Shown: positions 40,859-62,065 of the stretch, piece by piece
Layout of the letters: every line of letters begins with the position of its first letter
Position numbering within the stretch: the stretch's first letter is position 1
Assembly (NCBI GenBank): GCA_947649495.1
Contig: CANSRU010000005.1
Location: 62,001-126,000 of the forward strand
DNA: 64,000 nucleotides
Direction: 5' to 3'
Source: an uncultured Porphyromonadaceae bacterium
GTDB lineage: Bacteria; Bacteroidota; Bacteroidia; Bacteroidales; Muribaculaceae
Notes under the pieces: model-generated
What the model was told of the DNA's origin: nothing
What the model saw: only the letters and a program-made list of their open reading frames with translations
The model's database searches: none
Translations under genes and position numbers: made by a program

Positions 40859-42375
40859 TTTCTGAAAATTTTATTTTTAAATTCTATCAACGGCTTCTTA
40901 ATCAAACTTTTTTCGGCTATGTTCAAGCAAAACAGCCATCCCAATGCGACATAGAAAAATATATACGAGGATATACCCAATCCAAATATCCATAAAGAAT
41001 CGCATGGCAAATACCGCCATATCACTACATACACTATGGTTATGACAATGGGTACTATCGACATTTTCAATATTTCCTTCCAAAAAGTACCGATTTCAAG
41101 ATGCTGTTTACTGTGGTAATACACATTCAATATAAATCCCTGACCTACAGCATTAGCAACACCAATAGCGACCGCGCAACCTATAGCGCCGTAATATTTA
41201 GCCAACACTATTTGGACTACCAGACTTATGGCGCTTACACAAACAAGCATTACCGACCTGAACTTCTGCTGGTTGCGTGCCTGCAATATGATTATACCGG
41301 TGTTTTGAATCAATGGTGGCAAGGTGGTAAAAAACAGAGTGAGACAAATCACATACACATCATCGTAGCCAGGTCCGGCCCAGAATGATATGAAACTTCT
41401 GCCAAACACCACAAATCCACCAATAATCAGCGACATTATAAAGAATTGTATCCGCCCCACTCGTAGGAACATATCGGCAAATTCATGGTCGGAACTATGC
41501 TTTGCTACCATAGAGGTCAACCGAGGAAGAAGCACACCACTCACACCACTTGAGAACATTATATACATCTGCATCAATGTGACCCCGAGTGCAAACACCG
41601 ATATGGCAACCGTACCGTTAGTGGCTCCGAGCACAAACTGTCCTGTGCTATAATAGAACTTAAACATCACATCGCCAAGGAATACCCAGACAGAAAATCC
41701 AAGCAATTCGCGGATAAACGACCATTTGAACTTGGCAAAATGTAACTTAACACCAAGTTTACGCCTACAGAACCAGAAATTGACACCAAGCAGACATATA
41801 TTGCACACCGTCTGCACCACAACCATAGCCACAGCCTTGTAACCGAGATATAGCAGAGCCACAATGGCGGCAGTTGACAAAAGCATCCGGCAGATAATCA
41901 CTAACTTCTGAAACACAAAATCTTCGTAGGCAGTGATTATGGAGCCAAAAACACTCATAGGGAACGTAACCGCCAGATTGACCAACAGCAGCATAATCAT
42001 TATTCGTGCCTGCGAAATATCGTCAGGTGTCATGGTCCGGTCAAACATCCAATCTATATTGAAGTACAACACCAGTCCGGCTATAAAGGCCACAACACCT
42101 ATTATAGAATACATCACGAAGAACAATCCGAACAATGAATATTGCTCATCAACCTTACCTTCGGCCCGATATTTAGCGGTGTATCTCACCACAGTAGGAC
42201 CAAAGCCGAAATCAAGCAATGTAAGATAGGCTATCACCGACGCCACCAATGAATACAAGCCATATTCATTCTGCCCGAGCATTCTGAGCATATAGGGTGT
42301 GTACAGCAATCCTAACAGGATGTTCAATCCTATTATCACATAGTTCAGTACGGCTCCGGCTTTAATCTGGTTCAT
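40852..42375 (-). CDS. wzx: Polysaccharide flippase (Wzx/MATE-like)
   Basis: A 507-residue inner-membrane protein with about 12-14 helices, beginning MNQIKAGAVLNYVIIGLNILLGLLYTPYMLRMLGQNEYGLYSLVAS, the hallmark of polysaccharide-biosynthesis flippases. It moves lipid-linked repeat units across the inner membrane. I chose the ATG at 42375; the open frame to 42402 needs a TTG start. A full promoter (42424-42454, minus) lies 49 bases upstream, so this is the first gene of the flippase-SDR-TPP operon. Symbol by function, not by close homology. Confidence 0.88.
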   Translation of the reverse strand: MNQIKAGAVLNYVIIGLNILLGLLYTPYMLRMLGQNEYGLYSLVASVIAYLTLLDFGFGPTVVRYTAKYRAEGKVDEQYSLFGLFFVMYSIIGVVAFIAGLVLYFNIDWMFDRTMTPDDISQARIMIMLLLVNLAVTFPMSVFGSIITAYEDFVFQKLVIICRMLLSTAAIVALLYLGYKAVAMVVVQTVCNICLLGVNFWFCRRKLGVKLHFAKFKWSFIRELLGFSVWVFLGDVMFKFYYSTGQFVLGATNGTVAISVFALGVTLMQMYIMFSSGVSGVLLPRLTSMVAKHSSDHEFADMFLRVGRIQFFIMSLIIGGFVVFGRSFISFWAGPGYDDVYVICLTLFFTTLPPLIQNTGIIILQARNQQKFRSVMLVCVSAISLVVQIVLAKYYGAIGCAVAIGVANAVGQGFILNVYYHSKQHLEIGTFWKEILKMSIVPIVITIVYVVIWRYLPCDSLWIFGLGISSYIFFYVALGWLFCLNIAEKSLIKKPLIEFKNKIFRKC

Positions 42376-43789: not shown

Positions 43790-44899
43790 ATGAAAATAGG
43801 AATAATGTCATATTGGGACACGCAACACAACTATGGGCAGGTACTCCAATGCTATGCCATGCAACAGTTTCTGCGCAACCTCGGACATACACCATATCAC
43901 ATCAAATACACTCCCGAACCGACCTCCACCTTCGGCAAAATATCGAAGCTATTGAAATCAATAGCCGCCGGAGACACAAAGGAGCTGATAAGACAACGAC
44001 GCAACTCACAGAAACACAATGGAGGAGAAACACTCCCCACACAGCGTAACTTCGACGAGTTCAGGAAACGGCATATAAAGTTCACCGACCGCACATATAC
44101 CTACAAATCACTCCGACAGCTGCCACCGGAAGCCGACTGCTACATTGCCGGAAGCGACCAGATATGGGCCTCGCCAGACCCCGGCTACATGCTGAACTTC
44201 GGCAACAAAAACACCCTGCGGATAGCTTACGCCCCATCAATGGGAGGAATAGCAATGATGGACGGACACATGCGCTACGACTTCCGGCGGTTGATAAAGA
44301 GACTCGATGTGGTTACAGCCCGCGAGCAGGATGGTGTGGAACAATGCCATGCAGCCGGGCGCAAGGATGCCGAGCTTGTACCCGACCCGGTGATGCTGCT
44401 TCGGGCCGACGAATACCGGAATATAGCTTCGTCTCCGCGGCCGGAGCGACCATACATATTATTATATCTTTTAGGCAACCAGATTGACATTGATGTACAC
44501 ACATTTTTTGAATGGGCCGACAGACACAACCTCGACATAAAGTACATCACCGCGCAGGGCCGCAACGACTCTTACCCGAAAGCCTATCCCAATGTCGACG
44601 AGTGGCTCGGATTAATCGACGGAGCCAAGTATGTGTTCACCAACTCATTCCACGGCATGCTGACAAGCATAATACTCAACCGCCCGTTCCTGACCATACC
44701 CCTCAGCGGCAGCTACTCCAGAATGAACAGCCGTATCACCACACTGCTGACATCGCTAAGCCTCACAGACCGCATATTCCGCAACTCGCTCGACGAGGTG
44801 GAGCGCCCCATAGACTTCGCCAAGGTCAACGAGCGGCTCGCCGAAGCACGCAAAGCCATAGCGGATAAATTCGGCAAATGGCTATCCCCGGCCAAGTAA
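43790..44899 (+). CDS. Polysaccharide pyruvyl transferase family protein
   Basis: A 369-residue protein opening with MKIGIMSYWDTQHNYGQVLQCYAMQQFLRNLGH and containing DCYIAGSDQIWAS, LVPDPVMLL and FTNSFHGMLTSIILNRPFL, the signatures of the CsaB/ExoV pyruvyl transferase family. These add a ketal-linked pyruvate (from phosphoenolpyruvate) to a sugar, giving the polymer a negative charge. The gene is alone on its strand here and converges with the next glycosyltransferase, overlapping it by 18 bases at the 3' ends. Confidence 0.9.
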   Translation: MKIGIMSYWDTQHNYGQVLQCYAMQQFLRNLGHTPYHIKYTPEPTSTFGKISKLLKSIAAGDTKELIRQRRNSQKHNGGETLPTQRNFDEFRKRHIKFTDRTYTYKSLRQLPPEADCYIAGSDQIWASPDPGYMLNFGNKNTLRIAYAPSMGGIAMMDGHMRYDFRRLIKRLDVVTAREQDGVEQCHAAGRKDAELVPDPVMLLRADEYRNIASSPRPERPYILLYLLGNQIDIDVHTFFEWADRHNLDIKYITAQGRNDSYPKAYPNVDEWLGLIDGAKYVFTNSFHGMLTSIILNRPFLTIPLSGSYSRMNSRITTLLTSLSLTDRIFRNSLDEVERPIDFAKVNERLAEARKAIADKFGKWLSPAK

Positions 44900-45664
44900 C
44901 CGCTTCAACCGTTGGTTGACCGCCACAAGAAAGCCCGACACTTTCGGACCGACAAGCTTTTTGATATTTTCGCGATATTTCGGCCATCCGGTAACCCACG
45001 TAGCGTCGCCATAATGAATCGACACTGTGTTGGGGGTGATTTTCATTTCACGGGTGCTCCCCTGTATGGGACTGAAATAATCGCCAGGGTATATCGTGAC
45101 TCCGGCCACAGTCTGAATGTCGGGAATGCCACGCAGACCATATTTGCATAATGTCTCGGTGGTATACTCCACCACCGTCTTCAAGTTGAGTGAACCATCG
45201 GGATTCCTGAACCGCAGACCGGAATAAACATCAAGAATCTCTTTGTACAGGCCGAGGCCGGGGTTTACCCCAAGGCCGAGGCCGGGGGCGACTCCCAACT
45301 CGTCGGGAGTCGCCCCTGGCTCATAGGAGTTCTGGAAACCCATGAACGGTCCGGCAGAGATGATATGCTCCATAGGCTTTATCACCTCCACATCCGTATC
45401 AAAATAAAGGCCTCCCTCCCTATACAATATCCAGAACCGGGCATAGTCGCTCACAAAGGCGTACTTCTTAGCAGCATAAGCTTCCGACACGTATGGGATA
45501 CAATTGACATCGAAATTCGACTCGTCCCATCGCTTTATCTCATAATCGGGCAAAAACTTACGCCAGGATTTGATACACTTCTCGGCTGATTTCGGAAGAG
45601 GCTTTCCACCAAACCAGCAGTAATGTATCACTTTCGGTATATCTTGATTTTCTTTTGATTCCAT
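44882..45664 (-). CDS. Capsular glycosyltransferase with DxD motif (Gly_transf_sug/GT32-like)
   Basis: A 260-residue protein with IPKVIHYCWFGGKPLP, the sugar-binding LPDYEIKRWDESNFD, AFVSDYARFWILYREGGLYFDTDVEVIKP (DxD as DTD) and SIHYGDATW near the end, all typical of the OCH1/GT32-like capsule transferases. It builds the repeat unit on the cytoplasmic face. An odd very GC-rich stretch (45250-45316) encodes a Gly/Pro/Leu-rich direct repeat (PGLGLG) and holds a 12-base-pair hairpin. It converges with the pyruvyl transferase. Confidence 0.88.
   Translation of the reverse strand: MESKENQDIPKVIHYCWFGGKPLPKSAEKCIKSWRKFLPDYEIKRWDESNFDVNCIPYVSEAYAAKKYAFVSDYARFWILYREGGLYFDTDVEVIKPMEHIISAGPFMGFQNSYEPGATPDELGVAPGLGLGVNPGLGLYKEILDVYSGLRFRNPDGSLNLKTVVEYTTETLCKYGLRGIPDIQTVAGVTIYPGDYFSPIQGSTREMKITPNTVSIHYGDATWVTGWPKYRENIKKLVGPKVSGFLVAVNQRLKRLLGRG
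45285..45316. repeat. 12-bp hairpin inside the GT32-like gene
   Basis: GGGGCGACTCCC, 8-base loop, GGGAGTCGCCCC, perfect. Next to it a 15-base word (CCCCGGCCTCGGCCT on the minus strand) occurs twice 24 bases apart, coding PGLGL twice. Confidence 0.6.
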
Positions 45665-45686: not shown

Positions 45687-46704
45687 TCAATTTATCAGCC
45701 GGTCAAGCCATCTGAACCGTGGCATGCGCTGCAGCGACATTATCAAGGCGCTCACCGCCACACACACGCAGCACACCGCAAAAGCCCTGACATATATACC
45801 CGACAATGCATCGCCCACGAAAACAATCATAAGGAATAACACCCACATGTGCACAAAGTATATCCACATGCTCATTTTCCTGCACCACATCCATGCCGGT
45901 GACTCGGGAAGTCTTACGTGAGCGGCAAGCATGAACAGCGCTATACCTCCCACCAACGGCGGCCATGGAAGCTCTACAACATAGAGCGTATAACTTACTA
46001 AAATACAGCAAATTACAATTAGGGGGGGGATTTATTCCAATATCAAGCACGCGCTTGATCAGCATACCGCACATAAGATACATGCCGCCAATCAGCACCG
46101 GCCATGTAAGGAGTTTGAAATATCGTAACAGCGTGTTCAGCAATTGGCTGTCAAATTCCACATGCGTGGCCGTCCATCCACCGAGATATATCAATGCCGA
46201 CACCGACATAATCCACACGCGGGCGTTTTTCATCCCGGCACATCTACTGTATATGAACAGGTAAACGACCATAGACCACAGATACCACAATGGAAACGCA
46301 TAGGCCGACTGCCCCCACAGCAACACCTGCAACGGATAGCGTACCAGATCCTTCCATAGAGGATCGTCGCCTACCGCATAGCAATAAATCTGTATGGGAA
46401 GATATATAATAAGCCACAGTACAAACATACGCAGACACTTGCCGCTCCTTGACCGCAACGCGGCACGCTTCTCGTCCACAGTAGCCATACGGTCAAGTTT
46501 ATTACCGATTAGATAGCCGGAAACAATAAAAAAATAAGGCACTGCCAGCTCGATAAACCAGTTGAAAGCCGGGCTGTAACCATGGGCATCGCCATAGACC
46601 GCACGCACATGGATGGCAACCACCGCAAAGGCCATTATAAGTTTTATCACATCGGCCGCACGCATGTGGCCGACAGAACCGGCAGAACCGCTGTAATTTT
46701 TCAT
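45687..46704 (-). pseudogene. Acyltransferase 3 family, out of frame at a C8 tract (phase OFF)
   Basis: From the ATG at 46704 the frame encodes an inner-membrane acyltransferase (MRAADVIKLIMAFAVVAIHVRA, PYFFIVSGYLIGNKL, FPLWYLWSMVVYL) until eight C residues at 46029-46022 (minus strand). The original frame then becomes Cys/Gly-rich nonsense. In the next frame a good hydrophobic continuation (IVICCILVSYTLYVVELPWPP then GGIALFMLAAHV) runs to a stop at 45687. Removing one C restores a 338-residue protein. This is the pattern of slipped-strand phase variation. Family members acetylate or otherwise acylate polysaccharide sugars. It has its own promoter at 46745-46775. Confidence 0.85.
46022..46029 (-). 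repeat. C8 homopolymer (minus strand) in acyltransferase
   Basis: Eight consecutive C on the coding strand (G on plus), at about codon 226. Seven would put both halves in one frame. Confidence 0.9.
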
Positions 46705-46744
46705 ATCTCGCACATCTTGAACAGCATATTCACAATAGTGAAAA

Positions 46745-46775
46745 CAAAGATACGTTTTTTAACGACATTCCACAA
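46745..46775 (-). promoter_or_regulatory. Promoter of the phase-variable acyltransferase (TTG-N20-TATCTTTG)
   Basis: Minus strand: TTG (46775-46773), 20-base spacer, TATCTTTG (46752-46745), 41 bases before the ATG. An intact promoter supports an off-switched gene rather than a dead one. Confidence 0.78.
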
Positions 46776-46821
46776 TAAGTATACATAAACTTCGTTAACA
46801 TTATTGCAAATATATCCGGAT

Positions 46822-47631
46822 ATGAACACTATGAAATTAATACCCCTATGGCTTATAGCAGCCATAACGCTTCTAAGCTCATGCAAGACAAAGAACAATC
46901 TCGTCTATTTTGAAGATTTGCAACAGACCGCCGACGGCATCATTGCCACTGAGCCTTACAACGTCAAAATCGAACCGGAATCAGAACTTCTGATATTCGT
47001 GAAATCAGAAGTGCCGGCAGCCTCAGCGGAATTCAATCTGCCATACATCAACCCCGCTACAGAAGGCACCACCACCACAAGCAGCATTCCTACCCAGCAG
47101 ACTTACAAAGTGGACGAGAACGGCGACATCGACTTTCCTCGCCTTGGCAAGATACATGTTGCCGGCATGACACAGATGCAGCTCAAGGAATACCTCATCA
47201 AGCGCATCAGCGAATATGTCAAAGACCCTATGGTTACTGTCAAGATGTTAGGCTATAAAATAATAGTGATGGGCGAAGTCAATGCGCCTAAGTCAATAAC
47301 CACAACAGCCGAACGCTACAGCCTGCTCGATGCCATAGCCGACTGCGGAGGAATGAACACTTATGCCGTGCGCGACAATCTACTCCTGCTCCGCCGCAAC
47401 GAGAAAAACGAATATGAGCACCACAAAATAGACATGACCCGCTCCGACATAATGCAATCGCCCTACTTCTGGCTGAAAAACAATGATGTGGTGATTATAC
47501 AACCCAACGACAAAAAAGCCGCCAATGCCAACTTCAATCAGGAATACGGCTACAAATTGTCGATGATATCCACCATAGTGAGCGCATGTTCCATCGTGGC
47601 ATCGCTGGTGGTAGCTCTGATTGTAAAATAA
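46822..47631 (+). CDS. wza: Polysaccharide export lipoprotein (Wza family)
   Basis: A 269-residue outer-membrane lipoprotein with lipobox LLSSC, the polysaccharide export domain (YNVKIEPESELLIFVKSE ... YKVDENGDIDFPRLGKIHVAGMTQMQLKEYL), a SLBB domain (KIIVMGEVNAPKSITTTAERYSLLDAIADCGG) and a C-terminal helix. It forms the outer-membrane channel for capsule chains. I chose the ATG at 46822; an open frame from 46804 would need TTG. It leads a co-directional run that continues to 55147. Confidence 0.9.
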   Translation: MNTMKLIPLWLIAAITLLSSCKTKNNLVYFEDLQQTADGIIATEPYNVKIEPESELLIFVKSEVPAASAEFNLPYINPATEGTTTTSSIPTQQTYKVDENGDIDFPRLGKIHVAGMTQMQLKEYLIKRISEYVKDPMVTVKMLGYKIIVMGEVNAPKSITTTAERYSLLDAIADCGGMNTYAVRDNLLLLRRNEKNEYEHHKIDMTRSDIMQSPYFWLKNNDVVIIQPNDKKAANANFNQEYGYKLSMISTIVSACSIVASLVVALIVK

Positions 47632-47652
47632 AGCACATCATCCTCCGGCTCA

Positions 47653-48927
47653 ATGCTTCGCATCGACAGACTTTGCGTCTACGTGATATTGCTCGGTCTC
47701 ATATCCCTGATTCCGAGCCTTATCTATTTGAAGTTTCTCGACGAACTTTGCGCCGCAATGCTCGGAGGCATCGCCTTGCTCGACTGCGTGGTCAACGGCA
47801 GCTGGCGGAGATACCGTTTGCTCTGGCTGCTTATGGCTATAATGACATTCTATGCCATATACTCGCTGACCATTGTGCACAACAATGTTCCGATAGCCAT
47901 ATTCTACGACTGGGTAATTGAACTCAAGCCATATCTGCCTTTCATTGTATTACTGTGCATAGGGCCAAAGTTCACCACTTCCGACAAACAGATTATATGC
48001 GCCATCTGCTGGGTAAACGCCATAATAAGCATCATTGCCCTGCTTGGTGGCAAACCATTGACCTCTCCGATTCTGTTCCACCCTATGTACGGCGGATGTA
48101 TAGTGTTCATCAGCGCAATGTTCATTCTCTATTGCTCCATCGACAAGAACGGTGAGGTTCCGCGGCACACCATCATCATACTCGCGCTGCTTCTCACTGC
48201 CGGATTAATATGCGGACGAAGCAAATATTTCGGCACCTACGTGCTGTCAATATTTTTCCTTTTCCTTTACTCACCCGGCATAATCAAGCATCTTAATTTA
48301 AAGCATGCCCTCCTCATAGCCGTTGTATGTTTCGCCATAATAGCTGTAGCATGGAGCAAATTCCATTACTACTTCATTATCGGCACCGAGACACAGACCT
48401 CCTTTGACATTACCGCAACCCAGTCGTTTGCCCGACCGGTTCTTTACATAACATCCTGGTTCATTCTTCTGGATTATTTCCCGTTCGGATGCGGTCTGGC
48501 ATCGTTCGCTTCGTTTCCGTCGCAGGAATGGTACTCGAATGTTTATTATGAATATGGCATAAACAACGTATGGGGGCTTTCCTTGAAAAATCCGGGATTC
48601 ATCTGCGACGCCTTCTACCCCTCGCTCGCCCAGTTTGGATTCGCCGGGCTTATTCTATTCATCTGGTATTGGGTATATGCCTATGGATTTCTGCGCACAA
48701 TGCTGCGCACTGATGCCCGCAAATATAAATATCCATTCATAATCGGAAGCCTTATAATATGCTACATACTCATCGAGAGCACCACCGGCAATGTGATAAG
48801 CCAGAATGTAGGTGTGATGCCGATAATGCTTCTCGGGATAGTAGCGGCCCAAGGCCGGGAACTGCGGGAGGCTAAAGCCATACGGCACAAACCGGTTCTT
48901 TCAACAATTGACATTAAGAAAATATAA
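47653..48927 (+). CDS. wzy: O-antigen polymerase/ligase-like membrane protein (Wzy)
   Basis: A 424-residue inner-membrane protein with 10-12 helices and a large periplasmic loop (about 215-320) containing FARPVLYITSWFILLDYFPFGCGLASFAS, the polymerase/ligase loop pattern. Wzy joins lipid-linked repeat units in the periplasm. It follows wza after 21 bases and precedes the chain-length gene by 14, the expected order of a Wzx/Wzy-dependent locus. Low sequence conservation is normal for this family, so the call rests on topology and context. Confidence 0.82.
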   Translation: MLRIDRLCVYVILLGLISLIPSLIYLKFLDELCAAMLGGIALLDCVVNGSWRRYRLLWLLMAIMTFYAIYSLTIVHNNVPIAIFYDWVIELKPYLPFIVLLCIGPKFTTSDKQIICAICWVNAIISIIALLGGKPLTSPILFHPMYGGCIVFISAMFILYCSIDKNGEVPRHTIIILALLLTAGLICGRSKYFGTYVLSIFFLFLYSPGIIKHLNLKHALLIAVVCFAIIAVAWSKFHYYFIIGTETQTSFDITATQSFARPVLYITSWFILLDYFPFGCGLASFASFPSQEWYSNVYYEYGINNVWGLSLKNPGFICDAFYPSLAQFGFAGLILFIWYWVYAYGFLRTMLRTDARKYKYPFIIGSLIICYILIESTTGNVISQNVGVMPIMLLGIVAAQGRELREAKAIRHKPVLSTIDIKKI

Positions 48928-48941
48928 CTCAGCATCATAAA

Positions 48942-50969
48942 ATGGAAAAAGACAACAACAGACTCGATCTACGCCGCCTGTGGCGTTCTGCCTGGCAATG
49001 CCGCTGGATATATCTCGGCATGATAATACTGTGTCTCGGCATCGGTATATGGAGAGCCATAGTGTCCATGCCCAAGCACACCATAGTGGGCGACGTGCTC
49101 ATTGGTGAGATAGGCTACGATGACACCAACGCTGCCGGAGGTATGGCGCAGATGATGAAGACTTTCTCAGTAGGCGGATTCGGAGGAGCCGCTGTAGACA
49201 ATGAGATGGAAATTATGAAGAGCCACGATGTGATGGTACGCACTGTGCGCATGCTCGGACTCAACCGTTCGTATCTCGGCAAAAAAGACAACGGCAAGAA
49301 AGCAGTGCTTTACCAGAACTCACCTGTAGCTGTTGAGGCCCCGACTGAATATTTCGACACCCTATCAGTGCCGTTCAAGATAAATATAGAATTGCTTGGC
49401 AACGGCTCGGCTCACATAAAGGCGACAAAAGGATTTTTCGGCACTACAATAGCCGAAGTTGACAACGCACGCCTGCCTATGATGTTTGACACACCGCTCG
49501 GCAGCCTGCATATAATGCCCACGGAGCATTTCGAGAGCTCACCATACCGGGACATCACAGTATCGGTATACGGAAACGACTTGCGCGCATCATTGCTCTA
49601 CCAGGATACCAAAATTGATGTCAAGTCAAAACTCGCCGACATTATAGAGATAGAATACGACTGTACAAACGCCGACCTCGGCATGGTAACTGTCGATGGT
49701 ATCATGGGCGAATACAACTCAAAACGTCTCGAACGCATGCACGAAGCAGCCATCGCCTCAATACAATATTACGACGACCGTATTGCCGAGGCATTCAAGG
49801 ACCTGCAGAAAATAGAGCGCGAGGTTTCAGATTACCAGCGTGCCAACGAGCTGATGGGTATTGATTCCGAACTCGGACTGCTCGTAGGTACAGCCGTGGG
49901 CAACAAGCCGGCCATTATGACTGCCAACTACAACATTGCATACCATGAGACTATACTCGACATATTGCGCACCCGCCTTAACGACGACGTGATAATACCT
50001 CAGATGGAGAGTCTCAACGACCCCCATATTGCCGCATTCAACGGTGCCATCCAGGCACGACGCGACCTGAAACGCTCAGCTACTGACGACAACACTGCAC
50101 TCCAACTGCTCAATCAGAAAATTCAGGATTTACGCGATATTATAATCGAGAACTCCGAAAAGATGATTGCCAAGTCCAAGGCCGACGTAAAACATCAGCA
50201 GGAACTCACTAATGTAGCTCAAAAACGTCTCGATGCATATCCCGACTACCAACTCGAATTCATGAATCTGCTTCGCGACAAAGAGTACAAGAACTCACTT
50301 TACCAATATCTTGTATCCTCGCGCGAGAACTCTGTGCTGCAGCTATATTCCAAGACCAATCTTGGTTTTGTATATCAGCCGGCTTACGTCTACAGCAGTT
50401 CCGGAATTTTCAAACGGTTGCTGTGGCCCGTGGCAATGCTCATCTTCGCGCTTTTCGCTTCTTCGTGCATAGCACTGTTTTTAATGTTCATCAGCCGCAA
50501 GGTAAAAGACCCGATGGACATCGCATTCATGGAGATTGATGCCAATGCAGTGAATTATGCCGGCGACCGTGAACAGATCAACCGCCTGCGCACACTGATT
50601 ACGGCCGACACTTCGCGCCGGCTCATCTATAGCGCCGATTTCGCTGGCAATGGCATAGCCACCAAAGCATTGACCGATTCCCTGCTCTCCATAGAGCGCT
50701 CGGTCGAGATAATAAGCGGTCTCGCCGACAACGACACTATCCTCACCCCATCGTTCAACGGCCGTGTTAAAGAAGCCCTAGCAGCCACCGACTACGTTAT
50801 CGTCGATATCCCGGCCCCCACACGTCTGTTTGAACTTGAACATATCATTGACAACAACAATGCCAATCTGCTCATTGCTTTGGAAAGCGGCAAAATAAAA
50901 CGCAGCACTCTCAAGAAATATCTTTCAGGACAGACTGCCGCCCGCGTTTACACATTAATAGAAAAGTGA
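48942..50969 (+). CDS. wzc: Wzz-type chain-length protein with degenerate tyrosine-kinase domain
   Basis: A 675-residue protein. N-terminal helix (WIYLGMIILCLGIGIW) and a second helix near residue 490 (LLWPVAMLIFALFASSCIALFLMF) bound a long periplasmic Wzz domain with coiled coils (QYYDDRIAEAFKDLQKIEREVSDYQ). The C-terminal 170 residues have the position and beta-strand pattern of a BY-kinase (RLIYSADFAGNGIATKALTDSL, DYVIVDIPAP) but lack a usable Walker A (GxxGxGKS/T) and a tyrosine-rich tail, so kinase activity is doubtful. It probably controls chain length by binding the Wza channel. Normal bacterial Wzc proteins are active kinases. Confidence 0.85.
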   Translation: MEKDNNRLDLRRLWRSAWQCRWIYLGMIILCLGIGIWRAIVSMPKHTIVGDVLIGEIGYDDTNAAGGMAQMMKTFSVGGFGGAAVDNEMEIMKSHDVMVRTVRMLGLNRSYLGKKDNGKKAVLYQNSPVAVEAPTEYFDTLSVPFKINIELLGNGSAHIKATKGFFGTTIAEVDNARLPMMFDTPLGSLHIMPTEHFESSPYRDITVSVYGNDLRASLLYQDTKIDVKSKLADIIEIEYDCTNADLGMVTVDGIMGEYNSKRLERMHEAAIASIQYYDDRIAEAFKDLQKIEREVSDYQRANELMGIDSELGLLVGTAVGNKPAIMTANYNIAYHETILDILRTRLNDDVIIPQMESLNDPHIAAFNGAIQARRDLKRSATDDNTALQLLNQKIQDLRDIIIENSEKMIAKSKADVKHQQELTNVAQKRLDAYPDYQLEFMNLLRDKEYKNSLYQYLVSSRENSVLQLYSKTNLGFVYQPAYVYSSSGIFKRLLWPVAMLIFALFASSCIALFLMFISRKVKDPMDIAFMEIDANAVNYAGDREQINRLRTLITADTSRRLIYSADFAGNGIATKALTDSLLSIERSVEIISGLADNDTILTPSFNGRVKEALAATDYVIVDIPAPTRLFELEHIIDNNNANLLIALESGKIKRSTLKKYLSGQTAARVYTLIEK

Positions 50970-50973
50970 TCCG

Positions 50974-51945
50974 ATGATTCATATCCTGTACGACACTCCG
51001 GGTGGATACCCGTTCATTGCTGAATTGCTTGATCGGGAACACATACGCCACGACACGCCTGCCAAGTCATCCAACATATTGTCATGGCTGGCCGGAAGCT
51101 GGAATGCCGTACAGAAAAGCCGGCGTGGGGACACCATAGTGACACTCTACGATTTTCAAGGCGTGTTGTGCTACTGGATAGCGCGGCTCTGCCTGAAACG
51201 GCGCAAGGTTATTGCCGTCAACATCCTGTTGAAACATAAGGATACCCTACGCAACCGGTTGGCGACCTATCTTTACCGCAAGGCGCTCGGGTCTCCTGAT
51301 TTCACAGCTACGGTAACCACCGAATCCTATGGCCGGTGGCTCTCAGGAAAACTTAGGCTGAAAAAGCCACTCATTCTTCTCCGCGATGTGTACTACGATT
51401 CCTATGGCGATATTGCCACCAAAACAGGCACATCCGATGGTGGCTACGTGTTTTGTGGCGGACGCAACGGACGCGATTGGTCCTTTATACACCGTCTGGC
51501 CGAAGCCATGCCCGGAACGCGATTCCATTTCGTCATGCCATCGCAAGTATTTGACACCTTCGACAGGAAATTACCGAATGTCACTTATCATTGCAACATC
51601 CCGGTCGAATCGTTCAACAGACTTCTTGCCGGAGCGAGCATCGTGGCTCTCCCACTCGACACCGATGCGCCCGCAGGCCTGATTGTAGTGTTTCAGGCCG
51701 CCGCCCATGCGAAACCGATTGTGATAACAGACACCTTATCCACACACGACTACATTTCCGACAAAAAAGGCTACGGACTGCCCAACGACATCAACCTGTG
51801 GTGTGACACTATCTCATCAATAATGGCTGACCCTGTAGAACCGGCTGAACGGGTACGGAATCTAAAATCATTCATAACACAAAACTGTTCACAGCAGAAA
51901 TACGTTGATTCCCTGCGGGAAATAATCGACAAGACAAACATATAA
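50974..51945 (+). CDS. Glycosyltransferase (GT4-like, GT-B fold)
   Basis: A 323-residue protein. The C-terminal half has a GT-B pattern: GGYVFCGGRNGRDWSFIHRLAEAMP, FNRLLAGASIVALPLDTDAPAGLIVVFQAAAHAKPIVITDT, including the acceptor-side Glu-less loop (PAGL instead of EGF/EG). The N-terminal half is short. It probably adds a sugar to the repeat unit. It begins 4 bases after the wzc stop and the next gene starts 6 bases after its end, so it is a mid-operon gene. Donor sugar unknown. Confidence 0.78.
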   Translation: MIHILYDTPGGYPFIAELLDREHIRHDTPAKSSNILSWLAGSWNAVQKSRRGDTIVTLYDFQGVLCYWIARLCLKRRKVIAVNILLKHKDTLRNRLATYLYRKALGSPDFTATVTTESYGRWLSGKLRLKKPLILLRDVYYDSYGDIATKTGTSDGGYVFCGGRNGRDWSFIHRLAEAMPGTRFHFVMPSQVFDTFDRKLPNVTYHCNIPVESFNRLLAGASIVALPLDTDAPAGLIVVFQAAAHAKPIVITDTLSTHDYISDKKGYGLPNDINLWCDTISSIMADPVEPAERVRNLKSFITQNCSQQKYVDSLREIIDKTNI

Positions 51946-51951
51946 CACGAC

Positions 51952-53016
51952 ATGGCTATACCCAACCCTACCGACGCTTCAATCATCCTGACCTACCGCT
52001 GCCCCATGCGGTGCAAGATGTGCAATATATGGAAAAATCCCACCGATAAGAAAGAGGAAATTCAGGCTGCCGACCTCAAGTCGCTCCCGCGGCTCAAATT
52101 CATCAATCTCACAGGTGGCGAACCATTCATACGCGAGGATCTGGCTGAGATTGTCGAAGAATGCTATAAGCACACCGACCGCATAGTGATATCTACCTCC
52201 GGGTGGTTTGACGACCGCGTGATAGCTCTCGCACAGCGATTTCCCAACATCGGGATACGCATCTCCATCGAAGGTCTGCAGGCCAAAAACGACGAACTGC
52301 GCGGACGCGAGGGAGGATTCGAGAAAGGCTACCGCACACTGTTGAAGCTCAAGGAAATGGGACTTAAAGACATCGGGTTCGGATGCACCGTATCCAACAA
52401 CAACTCATCAGACATGCTCGAGCTTTACAAACTGAGCCGGAAACTGAACCTTGAGTTTGCAACCGCCGCATTCCACAACTCTTACTACTTCCACAAGGAC
52501 GACAACGTGATAACCAACCGCGACAATGTATGCCGAGACTTTGAGCAGCTTATTGAATGGCAGCTTAAGGAACACCACCCGAAATCGTGGTTCCGAGCTT
52601 GGTTCAACATGGGACTGATAAATTACATTGAAGGCAACCGCCGCATGCTTCCGTGCGAGGCAGGAACAGCCAACTTTTTCATAGACCCATGGGGCGAAGT
52701 ATATCCATGCAACGGCATGGAGGAGAAATTCTGGAAAATGTCGATGGGCAACATCCACGAAAACGACTTCACCACGATATGGAACAGCCCGCAGGCCCAA
52801 CGCGTGAGAGAGATGGTTAGACGATGCCCGAAAAACTGCTGGATGGTGGGCACCGCATCGCCGGTGATGCACAAATACATCAAGCATCCTTTGAAGTGGG
52901 CCATCAAGAACAAACTCCGTTCAATCATAGGCAAGCCTGCTTGTTTGGACAAAAAATGGTGCGATGTCGGACAAGACCCCGCCCAAGGTAACATGCAGTC
53001 TAACGTTTCGGAATGA
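51952..53016 (+). CDS. Radical SAM / SPASM protein in the capsule locus
   Basis: A 354-residue protein with the radical SAM cluster CPMRCKMC (CxxxCxxC, at about residues 18-25), GGEPFIRE, and a C-terminal set of Cys (LPCEAGTANFFIDPWGEVYPCNG, CPKNCW) typical of SPASM auxiliary iron-sulfur clusters. Such proteins modify peptides, sugars or lipids by radical chemistry. A radical SAM gene inside a polysaccharide operon suggests an unusual sugar or lipid change, such as epimerisation or dehydration; the actual substrate is unknown. Its stop overlaps the next start by 4 bases. Confidence 0.88.
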   Translation: MAIPNPTDASIILTYRCPMRCKMCNIWKNPTDKKEEIQAADLKSLPRLKFINLTGGEPFIREDLAEIVEECYKHTDRIVISTSGWFDDRVIALAQRFPNIGIRISIEGLQAKNDELRGREGGFEKGYRTLLKLKEMGLKDIGFGCTVSNNNSSDMLELYKLSRKLNLEFATAAFHNSYYFHKDDNVITNRDNVCRDFEQLIEWQLKEHHPKSWFRAWFNMGLINYIEGNRRMLPCEAGTANFFIDPWGEVYPCNGMEEKFWKMSMGNIHENDFTTIWNSPQAQRVREMVRRCPKNCWMVGTASPVMHKYIKHPLKWAIKNKLRSIIGKPACLDKKWCDVGQDPAQGNMQSNVSE

Positions 53017-54095
53017 AAATCGTAGTCACCGGCACACGAGGTATTCCCGGCATTCAGGGAGGAGTCGAAACCCATTGTCAGGAACTGTATCCCCGCATCG
53101 CGGCCATGGGTCACGATGTCACGGTGATACGGCGCACGCCTTATGTCTCTGACTGCAACAAGGAATATTCAGGTGTAAGGCTTGTCGACGTGTACGCACC
53201 GCGCAAGAAAAGTTTCGAGGCTATCGTTCACACATTCCTTGCCATAATAAAGGCCCGTCGCATGAATGCCGACATTCTCCACATCCATGCCATAGGGCCC
53301 GCCATAATGGTTCCGTTTGCCCGGATGCTGGGACTAAAAGTGGTGATGACCAATCACGGCCCTGACTACGACAGGCAGAAATGGGGGCGAATGGCCAAAG
53401 CAATACTTAAAACCGGCGAACGATTCGGCACACGGTTCAGCAATAAAGTAATAGTCATTTCCCGGGTTATACAGAATATCCTTGCCGACAGATATGGCCG
53501 GACAGACACCAATCTTATATATAACGGTGTAAACCCCACTGAATCTGACTACGGACGCGACTACACCGACAGCCTTGGCCTCGAACCACGGCATTACATT
53601 CTGGCTATGGGACGTTTCGTGAAAGAAAAGGGATTTCACGATCTTATCAACGCCTACAACCCTACCGAACATAACGGATTCAAGCTGGTGATAGCCGGCG
53701 ATGCCGACCACCCCGACCACTACTCACGTCAGCTAAAGGATGACGCCCGCAGAAAAGGAGTGATACTCACCGGATTCATAAACGGACGTCCGCTGAAGCA
53801 GCTTCTGTCAAACGCGGCTCTTTTTGTAATGCCGTCCTACCACGAAGGGCTCCCAATAGCATTGCTTGAAGCGATGAGCCATCGGCTTGACGTTGCGGTA
53901 AGCAACATTCCGGCCAACCGCCTTGACTGCCTTAAAGCCACCGACCATTTTCCTGTCGGTGACACTGATGCGATAAACCGTATTATAGGAGAAAAGCTCA
54001 ATGCACGTCTCACGCCCCGACAATACAACCTCGCCGACTACGACTGGGACCGCATTGCCCGCCAGACCGAATCACTCTACCAAAGCATATTATGA
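53013..54095 (+). CDS. Glycosyltransferase family 4
   Basis: A 360-residue GT-B enzyme: IVVTGTRGIPGIQGGVETHCQELYPRIAAMGHDVTVI at the start, NKVIVISRVIQNILADRYG in the linker, and YILAMGRFVKEKGFHDLINAYNP ... FVMPSYHEGLPIALLEAMSH, the EX7E-type nucleotide-sugar site of GT4. It transfers a sugar to the lipid-linked repeat unit in the cytoplasm. It overlaps the gene before by 4 bases and the acyltransferase after by 4 bases. Confidence 0.92.
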   Translation: MKIVVTGTRGIPGIQGGVETHCQELYPRIAAMGHDVTVIRRTPYVSDCNKEYSGVRLVDVYAPRKKSFEAIVHTFLAIIKARRMNADILHIHAIGPAIMVPFARMLGLKVVMTNHGPDYDRQKWGRMAKAILKTGERFGTRFSNKVIVISRVIQNILADRYGRTDTNLIYNGVNPTESDYGRDYTDSLGLEPRHYILAMGRFVKEKGFHDLINAYNPTEHNGFKLVIAGDADHPDHYSRQLKDDARRKGVILTGFINGRPLKQLLSNAALFVMPSYHEGLPIALLEAMSHRLDVAVSNIPANRLDCLKATDHFPVGDTDAINRIIGEKLNARLTPRQYNLADYDWDRIARQTESLYQSIL

Positions 54096-55147
54096 CACAT
54101 ACAACCACTATCGCCCCCAACAACGAACGCTACGTCTCACTTGACGGACTGAGGGCCTACGCCATCATCGGCATAGTGATGATGCACGTGATAAGCAATA
54201 TTCCTGTCAAGCCATCGGCCAACATACTGACCACCGAAATAATTCCGTGGTTCACCAATTTCACGCTTCTATTTATGATAGTAAGCGGATTTTCGATGAG
54301 TTGCGGATATTTCCACAGAATCGCCGATGGATTGATAACTCCGGCTGAATTTTATAAGAAACGTTATCTCAGGCTATTGCCATTCTTTGGGCTGATGTGT
54401 CTGATTGAATTACTTTATCAACCGTCATTAAAAACATTATACGAGACCTACGCCGACCTCACCATGTGCTTCGGATTGCTCCCCAATGTAAAAATCAGCG
54501 TGATAGGAGTGGGATGGTTCATCGGCGTGGTTATGGTCTACTATATGTTGTTCCCGTTTGTAGTGTTCCTTCAGAAGACACCGTTGCGCGCTATCATCAC
54601 ATTCTTGATGTCTTTAGCGCTCGTTTGGGTTGGCGCTGAATGCACCGACGACCCGACATTCGGCCGGCATTATATAGCCTATTCCATGCCCCTCTTTCTG
54701 GCTGGAGGCATAATCTATATTTATAGAAGAAATATACAAATGGGGGGGGGTAAAATCACCTCTTCAGTCATCGCATTAATGGCAATAGCCCTGTCCACGC
54801 TTCCATTTATAATCCACAATCAAAGTATATTTACCACTCTGGTTGTAAGTCTGCTCACATTCTGTGCATGGGTCATATATGCAATCACCACCGACAATTT
54901 GCTTCTTAACAACCGCATCACCCGATATCTCAGCAATATATCACTTGAGATATACCTGTGTCACATGGTGCTATACCGTGCATGGGAAAAATTCGGCATA
55001 GCCTCACACATATCCGACCCCGACATAGCCTATGCGGTGACCACTATTGCCGTCCTTGCAGGCTCGATAATCTTTTCGCACATCGTAAAATATTATATCA
55101 TAGATGCCGTTATTATGAAATGGAGAAAAAAACAGTCTCCATCATAA
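54092..55147 (+). CDS. Acyltransferase 3 family with in-frame G9 tract (phase ON)
   Basis: A 351-residue membrane acyltransferase: VSLDGLRAYAIIGIVMMHVISNI, LLFMIVSGFSMSCGYF, VGWFIGVVMVYYMLFPF, about ten helices. At 54742-54750 nine G residues encode MGGGK at about codon 217; the frame is open throughout, so this copy is ON. A change of one G would cut the protein by a third. The out-of-frame sister at 45687-46704 has its tract at about codon 226. It probably adds acetyl or another acyl group to the capsule sugar. Last gene of the long export-assembly operon. Confidence 0.9.
   Translation: MTHTTTIAPNNERYVSLDGLRAYAIIGIVMMHVISNIPVKPSANILTTEIIPWFTNFTLLFMIVSGFSMSCGYFHRIADGLITPAEFYKKRYLRLLPFFGLMCLIELLYQPSLKTLYETYADLTMCFGLLPNVKISVIGVGWFIGVVMVYYMLFPFVVFLQKTPLRAIITFLMSLALVWVGAECTDDPTFGRHYIAYSMPLFLAGGIIYIYRRNIQMGGGKITSSVIALMAIALSTLPFIIHNQSIFTTLVVSLLTFCAWVIYAITTDNLLLNNRITRYLSNISLEIYLCHMVLYRAWEKFGIASHISDPDIAYAVTTIAVLAGSIIFSHIVKYYIIDAVIMKWRKKQSPS
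54742..54750 (+). repeat. G9 homopolymer in acyltransferase
   Basis: Nine consecutive G, in frame here. A likely hot spot for slipped-strand frame changes. Confidence 0.9.
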
Positions 55148-61915: not shown

Positions 61916-62065
61916 TCAATAATGATTATCCCCGGCTAATTTCCCTATCAACAATTACCTATTTTTCAGTATTTCGGAACACGCCGTCCAATACTAATTT
62001 TGTACCAGATAATTTTTACGGATAGATCAACAACCAAACGGTAAATCTAACTTAGGATTTAAGAA

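Follow-up and report, generated by a model that had tools for sequence, protein, structure and literature searches.

Candidate contingency tracts in two acyltransferase-3 genes beside a polysaccharide operon, and a putative class of G-tract promoters, in a member of the Muribaculaceae

Introduction

Bacteria vary their surfaces by several described mechanisms. In Campylobacter, Neisseria and Helicobacter, G/C tracts that switch the reading frame of surface genes are standard. In Bordetella, the length of a C-stretch in the fim2, fim3 and fimX promoters, beside the fim box, influences transcription (PMC1891110). Salmonella oafB encodes a phase-variable acyltransferase-3 (AT3) O-acetyltransferase of surface polysaccharide, and is switched epigenetically (PMC9558356). 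For the Bacteroidales, DNA inversion has been described, with the invertible promoters of the capsule and SusC/SusD genes of Bacteroides (PMC12632263), and an invertase of Bacteroides is named in PMC11868660. Homopolymer switching and phase-variable AT3 genes are thus already known elsewhere. Here we consider two AT3 genes, each carrying a long G/C run, that flank a polysaccharide operon in 64 kb of DNA (the window: positions 62,001 to 126,000 of contig CANSRU010000005.1, assembly GCA_947649495.1) from an uncultured bacterium of the Muribaculaceae, in the Bacteroidales. We think it quite probable that both runs are contingency tracts, by which slipped-strand mispairing phase-varies the acylation of polysaccharide, and that they occur beside promoters tuned by tract length.

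Results

The window is part of a 2.45 Mb draft genome of 34 contigs, which was compared with 33 other genomes of its genus. A preliminary description of the window held that two AT3 genes flank the export genes and that each has a long G/C run, and coordinates and Pfam matches confirm this: the C8 and the G9 are the sole G or C runs of at least 8 in the window, both lie inside AT3 genes, and a second-order Markov model of the window expects 0.22 such runs on average. Each gene has in its coding part a G/C tract longer than chance, at which slips would change the frame, and this is one of the marks of a homopolymer phase-variable gene.

The plus-strand AT3 gene (the plus gene) is open, as had been described. 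Its product matches PF01757 over 2-325 of 326 positions (E 5e-32; 111.6 bits, cut-off 31), and past the run stop codons come within 0 and 8 codons in the two alternative frames. The open reading frame (ORF) of the minus-strand AT3 gene (the minus gene) matches PF01757 over 4-199 of 326 only (46.1 bits, cut-off 31), and the match ends at the run. The R/K-X10-H motif of AT3 proteins, as given in PMC9558356, can be found by eye in the first membrane helix of both proteins, as RAYAIIGIVMMH in the plus and KLIMAFAVVAIH in the minus protein. The minus gene is not truncated at the tract, as the frame as read continues for 106 amino acids past C8. What, then, has become of its C-terminal part? A search of 247 family genomes gave 13 with a match, the own genome counted among them. 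When the pieces were searched apart, the N part and the C part each matched all 12 relatives, one of which is flagged with an internal TGA; the C-part matches lie downstream of the N-part match, on the same strand, with E values of 3e-15 to 0.002. The C-terminus as read matched none of the 12. Because the N and C parts match the same relatives and the C-terminus as read matches none, the minus gene is taken to be frame-broken at the tract in this assembly, with an intact downstream frame of 110 amino acids, and here too the preliminary description stands. The length of an open shifted frame is by itself weak evidence, since tract-free AT3 genes are open for at least 100 codons from codon 228 in one shifted frame in 14/100 cases (0/100 in the other). 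We propose that, as assembled, the plus gene is switched on and the minus gene switched off.

Two further claims fared differently. An intact promoter had been ascribed to the minus gene, and a -7-type box is indeed present upstream, but the claim amounts to that box. The runs had been said to lie at almost the same protein position. C8 begins at codon 229 counting from the GTG at 46713, or at codon 226 from the ATG at 46704, and G9 begins within codon 217, but there is no rule in this: AT3 tracts start at about codons 31, 65, 72, 83, 98, 217, 226, 272 and 279, and the idea that a tract marks one AT3 loop was rejected in general on that account. The remark that no invertible promoter is seen agrees with a search for inverted pairs. 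Eight inverted pairs of at least 14 within 1.5 kb were found between window positions 42000 and 56000, none of them flanking the minus-gene promoter region 46714-46803, and an invertible promoter at the locus was rejected on this ground.

Are AT3 genes special in carrying tracts? The 125 AT3 matches listed in the genus became 118 after four split pairs were merged and three weak ones (G033:C1:293964, G029:C5:35496 and G032:C31:21927) dropped. These 118 hold 10 tracts, where 1.14 are expected. The own genome has tracts in 4 of its 7 AT3 places, one place being below the Pfam cut-off, against 0.06 expected, and the other 33 genomes have 6 in 111 matches against 1.08 expected (P 0.0009, or 0.005 when one ortholog pair is counted once). 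Synonymous shuffles (200) of 110 AT3 ORFs gave a mean of 1.23 and a maximum of 5, compared with the 10 observed; the ORFs were taken as read, so that the minus gene includes its shifted part, and eight with N were left out. When the AT3 matches are widened by 150 bp there are 13 runs of at least 8, and none of exactly 7. One of the 13 tracts is upstream of its gene (G009:C17). The other 12 are in, or at the start of, the coding part, and of these genes 8 are open, two are clearly broken (the minus gene and G003:C20), and two are probably broken near the N-terminus (G008:C105 and G014:C3).

What evolutionary steps account for these tracts? A quick tree was made of 113 AT3 proteins. Five shorter than 290 amino acids were excluded, and G003:C20, which bears a tract, is one of the five. 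The 12 rows with a tract count in G009:C17, where the tract is upstream of the gene, and several rows of the tree are long-branched, so that their placement is unsure. The tract label changes 9 times on the tree, with at least 6 changes forced by well supported branches, as compared to 11.6 changes on average for random labels. From the 9 versus 11.6 changes it follows that tracts were repeatedly gained and partly inherited, with fewer gains than genes. Inheritance is illustrated by the AT3 orthologs of G003 and G026 (79% identical), where a single site carries an in-frame G10 in the first and an in-frame G9 in the second, and by an AT3 gene of G032 (46-48% identical to that pair), which has G9 within a few residues of their site. 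Neither window gene has a relative in which a tract occupies the matching site, the nearest orthologs of both being without it. In another genus, a minus-gene relative carries a G8, in frame, at roughly residue 204 of the query, and a search with the plus AT3 against a named genome collection, from which own-genome records were possibly excluded, gave 34 pattern stretches and no confirmed relative. A single inherited site behind both window tracts was considered and rejected, as the two proteins are separate on the tree and the orthologs nearest to the plus gene have no run.

The two genes belong to a larger set. G/C runs of lengths 7, 8, 9 and 10 number 12, 10, 14 and 1 in the own genome (those of exactly 7 counted by hand), a peak instead of a decay. 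The 25 runs of 8-10 comprise 9 that interrupt genes and 16 that are intergenic. Genes interrupted are AT3 genes (4 tracts), a type I restriction specificity gene (2), and, with one each, a probable GT4 glycosyltransferase gene, a TupA-like gene and the gene of a 577-amino-acid protein without a Pfam match; besides AT3, the list includes classes known to phase-vary, namely restriction specificity and glycosyltransferase genes. The genus as a whole has 780 runs in 76.5 Mb, a mean of 10.2 per Mb. When the G strand is read, T comes directly after the run in 23 of the 25 tracts of the own genome. Among the 13 AT3 tracts of the genus, 9 have TA or TGA there, in both coding orientations; genus-wide, TAA or TGA follows in 239/780 runs, versus 108 for the reversed pattern. 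In promoters this flank belongs to the layout described below. Tracts inside genes share it too.

The intergenic tracts form a promoter class. Most of the 16 fit TTAAC-N5-TTTAAC-N4-G(8-9)-TAA-N16-TAnnTTTG. Two TTAA 10 bases apart are present in 12/16, the nearer one starting 7-10 bases before the run (by hand count), and TAnnTTTG starts 18-19 bases past the run in 7/16, as against 0/9 of the gene-interrupting tracts. The main Bacteroides sigma factor has the -7 consensus TAnnTTTG, and TTTG at about -33 (PMC7366714, PMC4747536); a run ending 19 bases before the -7 box would sit about where the -33 box would be. The candidate that gene-interrupting tracts are antisense promoters was unsupported, as 0/9 in the own genome have the box at 18-19 past the run, and among the nine a TTAA pair is present only at C18:10382, its members 16 and 6 bases ahead of the tract. 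Downstream of the 16 intergenic tracts, 14 genes were scanned for domains. They encode four TonB/SusC-type receptors (one weak), a beta-barrel protein, a DUF4595 protein, a lipocalin-like lipoprotein, a fucosidase, a transglutaminase-like protein, an ECF sigma factor, a TPR protein with histidine-kinase domains, and three proteins without a match over cut-off.

How widespread is the layout? The pattern TTAA-N4-6-G8-N17-24-TAnnTTTG was found in 7/295 genomes across the order and its reversed control in 0/295: at 8 places in the own genome, at 2, 7 and 3 in the three other family genomes of that draw, and at 2, 1 and 1 in three of the 291 remaining genomes. An alternative pattern with TTAA 13-15 bases upstream was found in 43/297 genomes, versus 1/297 for its reverse, and missed the own genome; it is not relied on. 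Run against the named genome collection, a stricter pattern matched at least 119 stretches, of which 80 are listed. Among the matches listed are the cultured strains Duncaniella muris DSM 103720 (at least one promoter) and Muribaculaceae isolate 013, Paramuribaculum and Candidatus Amulumruptor, and, by unchecked record label, many Prevotellaceae, Bacteroidaceae and Porphyromonadaceae and a few Clostridium and Staphylococcus. In 81 matches of named-collection loci the first TTAAC, which is outside the search pattern, is present at -19 to -15 with 70-98% per base, and the TAA past the run is conserved at 80-99% per base. The promoter sample of 61 runs consisted of all 29 of G002, 21/23 of G003 (the other two are in AT3 genes), 6 of G006 and 5 of G012. 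Twenty promoter stretches were fetched from other genomes, of which 18 fit the parsing pattern and two did not; the box is 18-19 bases past the run in 17 of the 18, and the first ORFs behind these promoters are, by eye, mostly signal-peptide-like. The layout is thus found across the family, mainly upstream of exported proteins.

In 13 genomes, chosen partly for having such promoters, a spacing search required both repeats, the TAA and the -7 box but left the 5-22 bases in between free. There were 32 matches in 9 of the 13 genomes, and none in the reversed control. An uninterrupted G run was present in 28/32 (one of 6, three of 7, thirteen of 8, eight of 9 and three of 10); in two the run was interrupted, and two had none. 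Over the 28 promoters the distance from the second TTAAC to the end of the run is 9 to 15 bases, and that from the run end to the -7 box is 18-20 bases in 27. The one distance varies and the other is near-constant, so that the variation resides in the tract, with a fixed part on either side of it. Within one SusC-like gene family, five promoters in four species (G002, G003 twice, G026 and G030) have G10, G9, G9, G10 and G9, and in all five the -7 box is at 18.

Several side observations were made on promoters and tracts elsewhere. In G040, a genome of the own family, two loci (L257 and L258) have tract promoters ahead of long exported proteins, that of L258 with repeated leucine-rich-like motifs, by eye, which we presume to resemble those of BspA proteins. 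G011:C2:74446-77007 has two tract promoters 2.5 kb apart, with a G9 directly after TTAAC and the usual 4-base linker absent. G012 has 81 G/C runs of at least 8, whereas the remaining 33 genomes of the genus have between 6 and 46. The interrupted type I restriction specificity gene of the own genome (L039:9471-10922; C18:34471-35922, minus strand, at a contig end) has three Methylase_S stretches with a G9 at each of the two junctions, and in G005:C29 two specificity halves, frames of 213 and 207 amino acids, flank one G9; specificity genes with such tracts were found in 2/12 genomes having these genes, among 30 loci looked at. Restriction specificity trimmed by slippage is possible. The probable GT4 glycosyltransferase gene (L056:2362-3470; own genome C14, tract at 45584) is split in two frames, a 98-amino-acid piece with a C8 and a 248-amino-acid piece with PF00534. 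The TupA-like ATP-grasp gene (L041:786-2154; own genome C32, tract at 1200) has its C9 near the end, at codon 316 of 321, with another TupA fragment behind it; the contig is 5.4 kb long, and the arrangement could be an assembly join.

The features of the locus are collected in Table 1. The minus gene runs divergently to the export operon, and the plus gene closes the plus-strand set 46804-55147. The operon encodes Poly_export/SLBB, Wzy-like, Wzz-like, glycosyltransferase, radical SAM/SPASM and GT4 glycosyltransferase proteins; the Wzy-like and Wzz-like matches are both below the Pfam cut-off, and the match of the non-GT4 glycosyltransferase is weak.

Table 1. Coordinates, in the window, of the two AT3 genes, their tracts and neighbouring features
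Feature	Position	Strand	Remarks
C8 tract in minus-strand AT3 gene	46022-46029	-	reads G8 on plus strand
G9 tract in plus-strand AT3 gene	54742-54750	+	
Minus AT3 ORF as read	45703-46713	-	336 aa, GTG start, stop at 45703
AT3-like first 228 codons of minus ORF	46030-46713	-	last 106 codons of the ORF out of frame
AT3 C-terminal half of minus gene	45687-46019	-	other frame, open, 110 aa + stop
-7-type box TATCTTTG upstream of minus AT3 gene	46752-46745	-	consensus TAnnTTTG (PMC7366714)
Plus AT3 gene	54092-55147	+	351 aa, open through G9
Polysaccharide operon between the AT3 genes	46804-54095	+	Pfam matches
Glycosyltransferase (Gly_transf_sug/Caps_synth)	44882-45664	-	directly downstream of minus AT3 gene

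Discussion

How would the two genes be varied? Slipped-strand mispairing would alter the length of both runs and so shift the frame. At the plus gene an intact AT3 protein would alternate with a shortened one, and at the minus gene with one that has another last third in place of its own. The polysaccharide that the intervening genes make is the probable substrate for acylation by the AT3 proteins, a putative capsule link that comes from the position of the AT3 genes beside the polysaccharide operon. The surface polysaccharide would then vary in two independent, heritable and reversible ways. At the promoters, the G tract between the TTAAC direct repeat and the -7 box would set their spacing.

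The preliminary description had proposed slipped-strand switching. Its observation was right, and the class of mechanism is well supported, by the peak of run lengths at 9, the enrichment in AT3 genes, the recurrent gains, the presence of both open and broken genes, and the G10/G9 ortholog pair; that switching takes place in a living population, that it would affect activity, and that polysaccharide is the substrate, we infer. The proposal was too narrow, however, because the two genes belong to a set of 25 tracts, of which the larger part is the promoter class.

It might be argued that the minus gene is an ordinary pseudogene, or its C8 an assembly indel, that the G9 is a chance cluster of GGG codons, and that there is no switching at all. 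Several findings weigh on that side. The data come from a single draft assembly of one strain, from which switching is deduced; runs of 8-9 are prone to consensus errors, and the C8 may have arisen as an error of assembly or consensus. When the plus gene alone is shuffled synonymously, a run of at least 8 comes up in 1.6% of 5000 shuffles, which is not tiny, and the gene's nearest orthologs (50-51% identical) are without a G or C run of at least 6 in their loci. Among the 118 AT3 matches, 105 have no tract within 150 bp, so that the tract-free state is the commoner one. In the sequence flanking AT3 loci there are 4 runs in 180 kb, roughly double the genus mean, and the neighbourhood is therefore somewhat enriched too; tract-bearing AT3 proteins are slightly clustered on the tree, only 3 of 500 shuffles being as low. 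A decayed gene and a chance run are, on the other hand, difficult to reconcile with a C part that is still open for 110 codons and still matches all 12 relatives, with AT3 genes elsewhere that carry tracts above expectation, and with run lengths that peak at 9, and we regard this explanation as unlikely. Most improbable is a switch of the minus gene between two functional C-termini instead of on and off. C-terminal switching has been reported in Helicobacter canadensis (PMC2823697), and the frame as read is open for 106 codons past the tract, but that C-terminus matches none of the relatives, and the 14/100 tract-free genes with an equally long opening in one shifted frame, none in the other, detract from the length of it.

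For the intergenic tracts, one might think that the G run is a fixed element, bound by a protein or contacted by RNA polymerase, at which slippage would be without consequence. The near-constant distances on both sides, the conservation of the TAA after the run (80-99% per base) and the interrupted runs in two of 32 promoters would suit such an element. Yet with no G in the query, 28/32 matches in the 13 partly preselected genomes had 6 to 10 Gs without interruption; the run ended anywhere between 9 and 15 bases from the second TTAAC; and the promoters of one SusC-like family are G9 or G10 in four species. A fixed element seems to us doubtful. We incline, with some reserve, to the view that the Muribaculaceae have a family-wide class of promoters tuned by slippage, in which a regulator would bind the TTAAC direct repeat, with its 10-bp period, and the poly-G would set both distance and helical phase to the -7 box. 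Through control of transcription by tract length, one-base slips would then retune a regulon that is dispersed in the genome and comprises TonB receptors, beta-barrels, lipoproteins and secreted proteins, in parallel to the frame-switching tracts in acyltransferase, glycosyltransferase and restriction-specificity genes.

If slippage does operate in these ways, an order that has been described as reliant on inversion of DNA would have a homopolymer phasome. Such a second layer, based on slippage, would let polysaccharide acylation, nutrient receptors and restriction specificity vary without a recombinase; it would escape searches for invertible DNA, and yet ordinary amplicon or metagenome reads would reveal it. 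The larger point is the promoter class, which is invisible from the window alone. The words 'slipped' and 'homopolymer' do not occur in the text of the review of Bacteroidales drawn on above (PMC12632263), none of the open-licence papers listed, judged by titles and the starts of abstracts, deals with homopolymer switching in the order or the family, and none on this tract-promoter class was found in the open-access literature.

It remains to compare these tracts with the known systems. As in the invertible promoters of Bacteroides, the proposed varying targets include capsule genes and SusC proteins in Bacteroidales; theirs is a site-specific inversion, whereas slippage is proposed here and no inverted pair flanks the minus-gene promoter. 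Salmonella oafB is likewise a switched AT3 gene, as we propose these to be, and acts on surface polysaccharide, but it is switched by an upstream DNA-methylation mechanism and not by a tract within the gene. Closer in mechanism are the genes of Campylobacter, Neisseria and Helicobacter, where, as here, G/C runs of 8-10 occur in surface-modifying and restriction genes, with open and broken states side by side; the host here differs in being a member of the Bacteroidales, and slippage is in our case read from sequence alone. The tract promoters would work like those of the Bordetella fim type without being members of it. They differ in the strand of the tract, in having the TTAAC repeat and a Bacteroidota -7 box, and in being many and dispersed in a genome, their layout being known from DNA sequence. 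They resemble the fim promoters in that a G/C tract whose length can vary lies within the promoter and adjoins a conserved upstream box, ahead of genes for surface and exported products.

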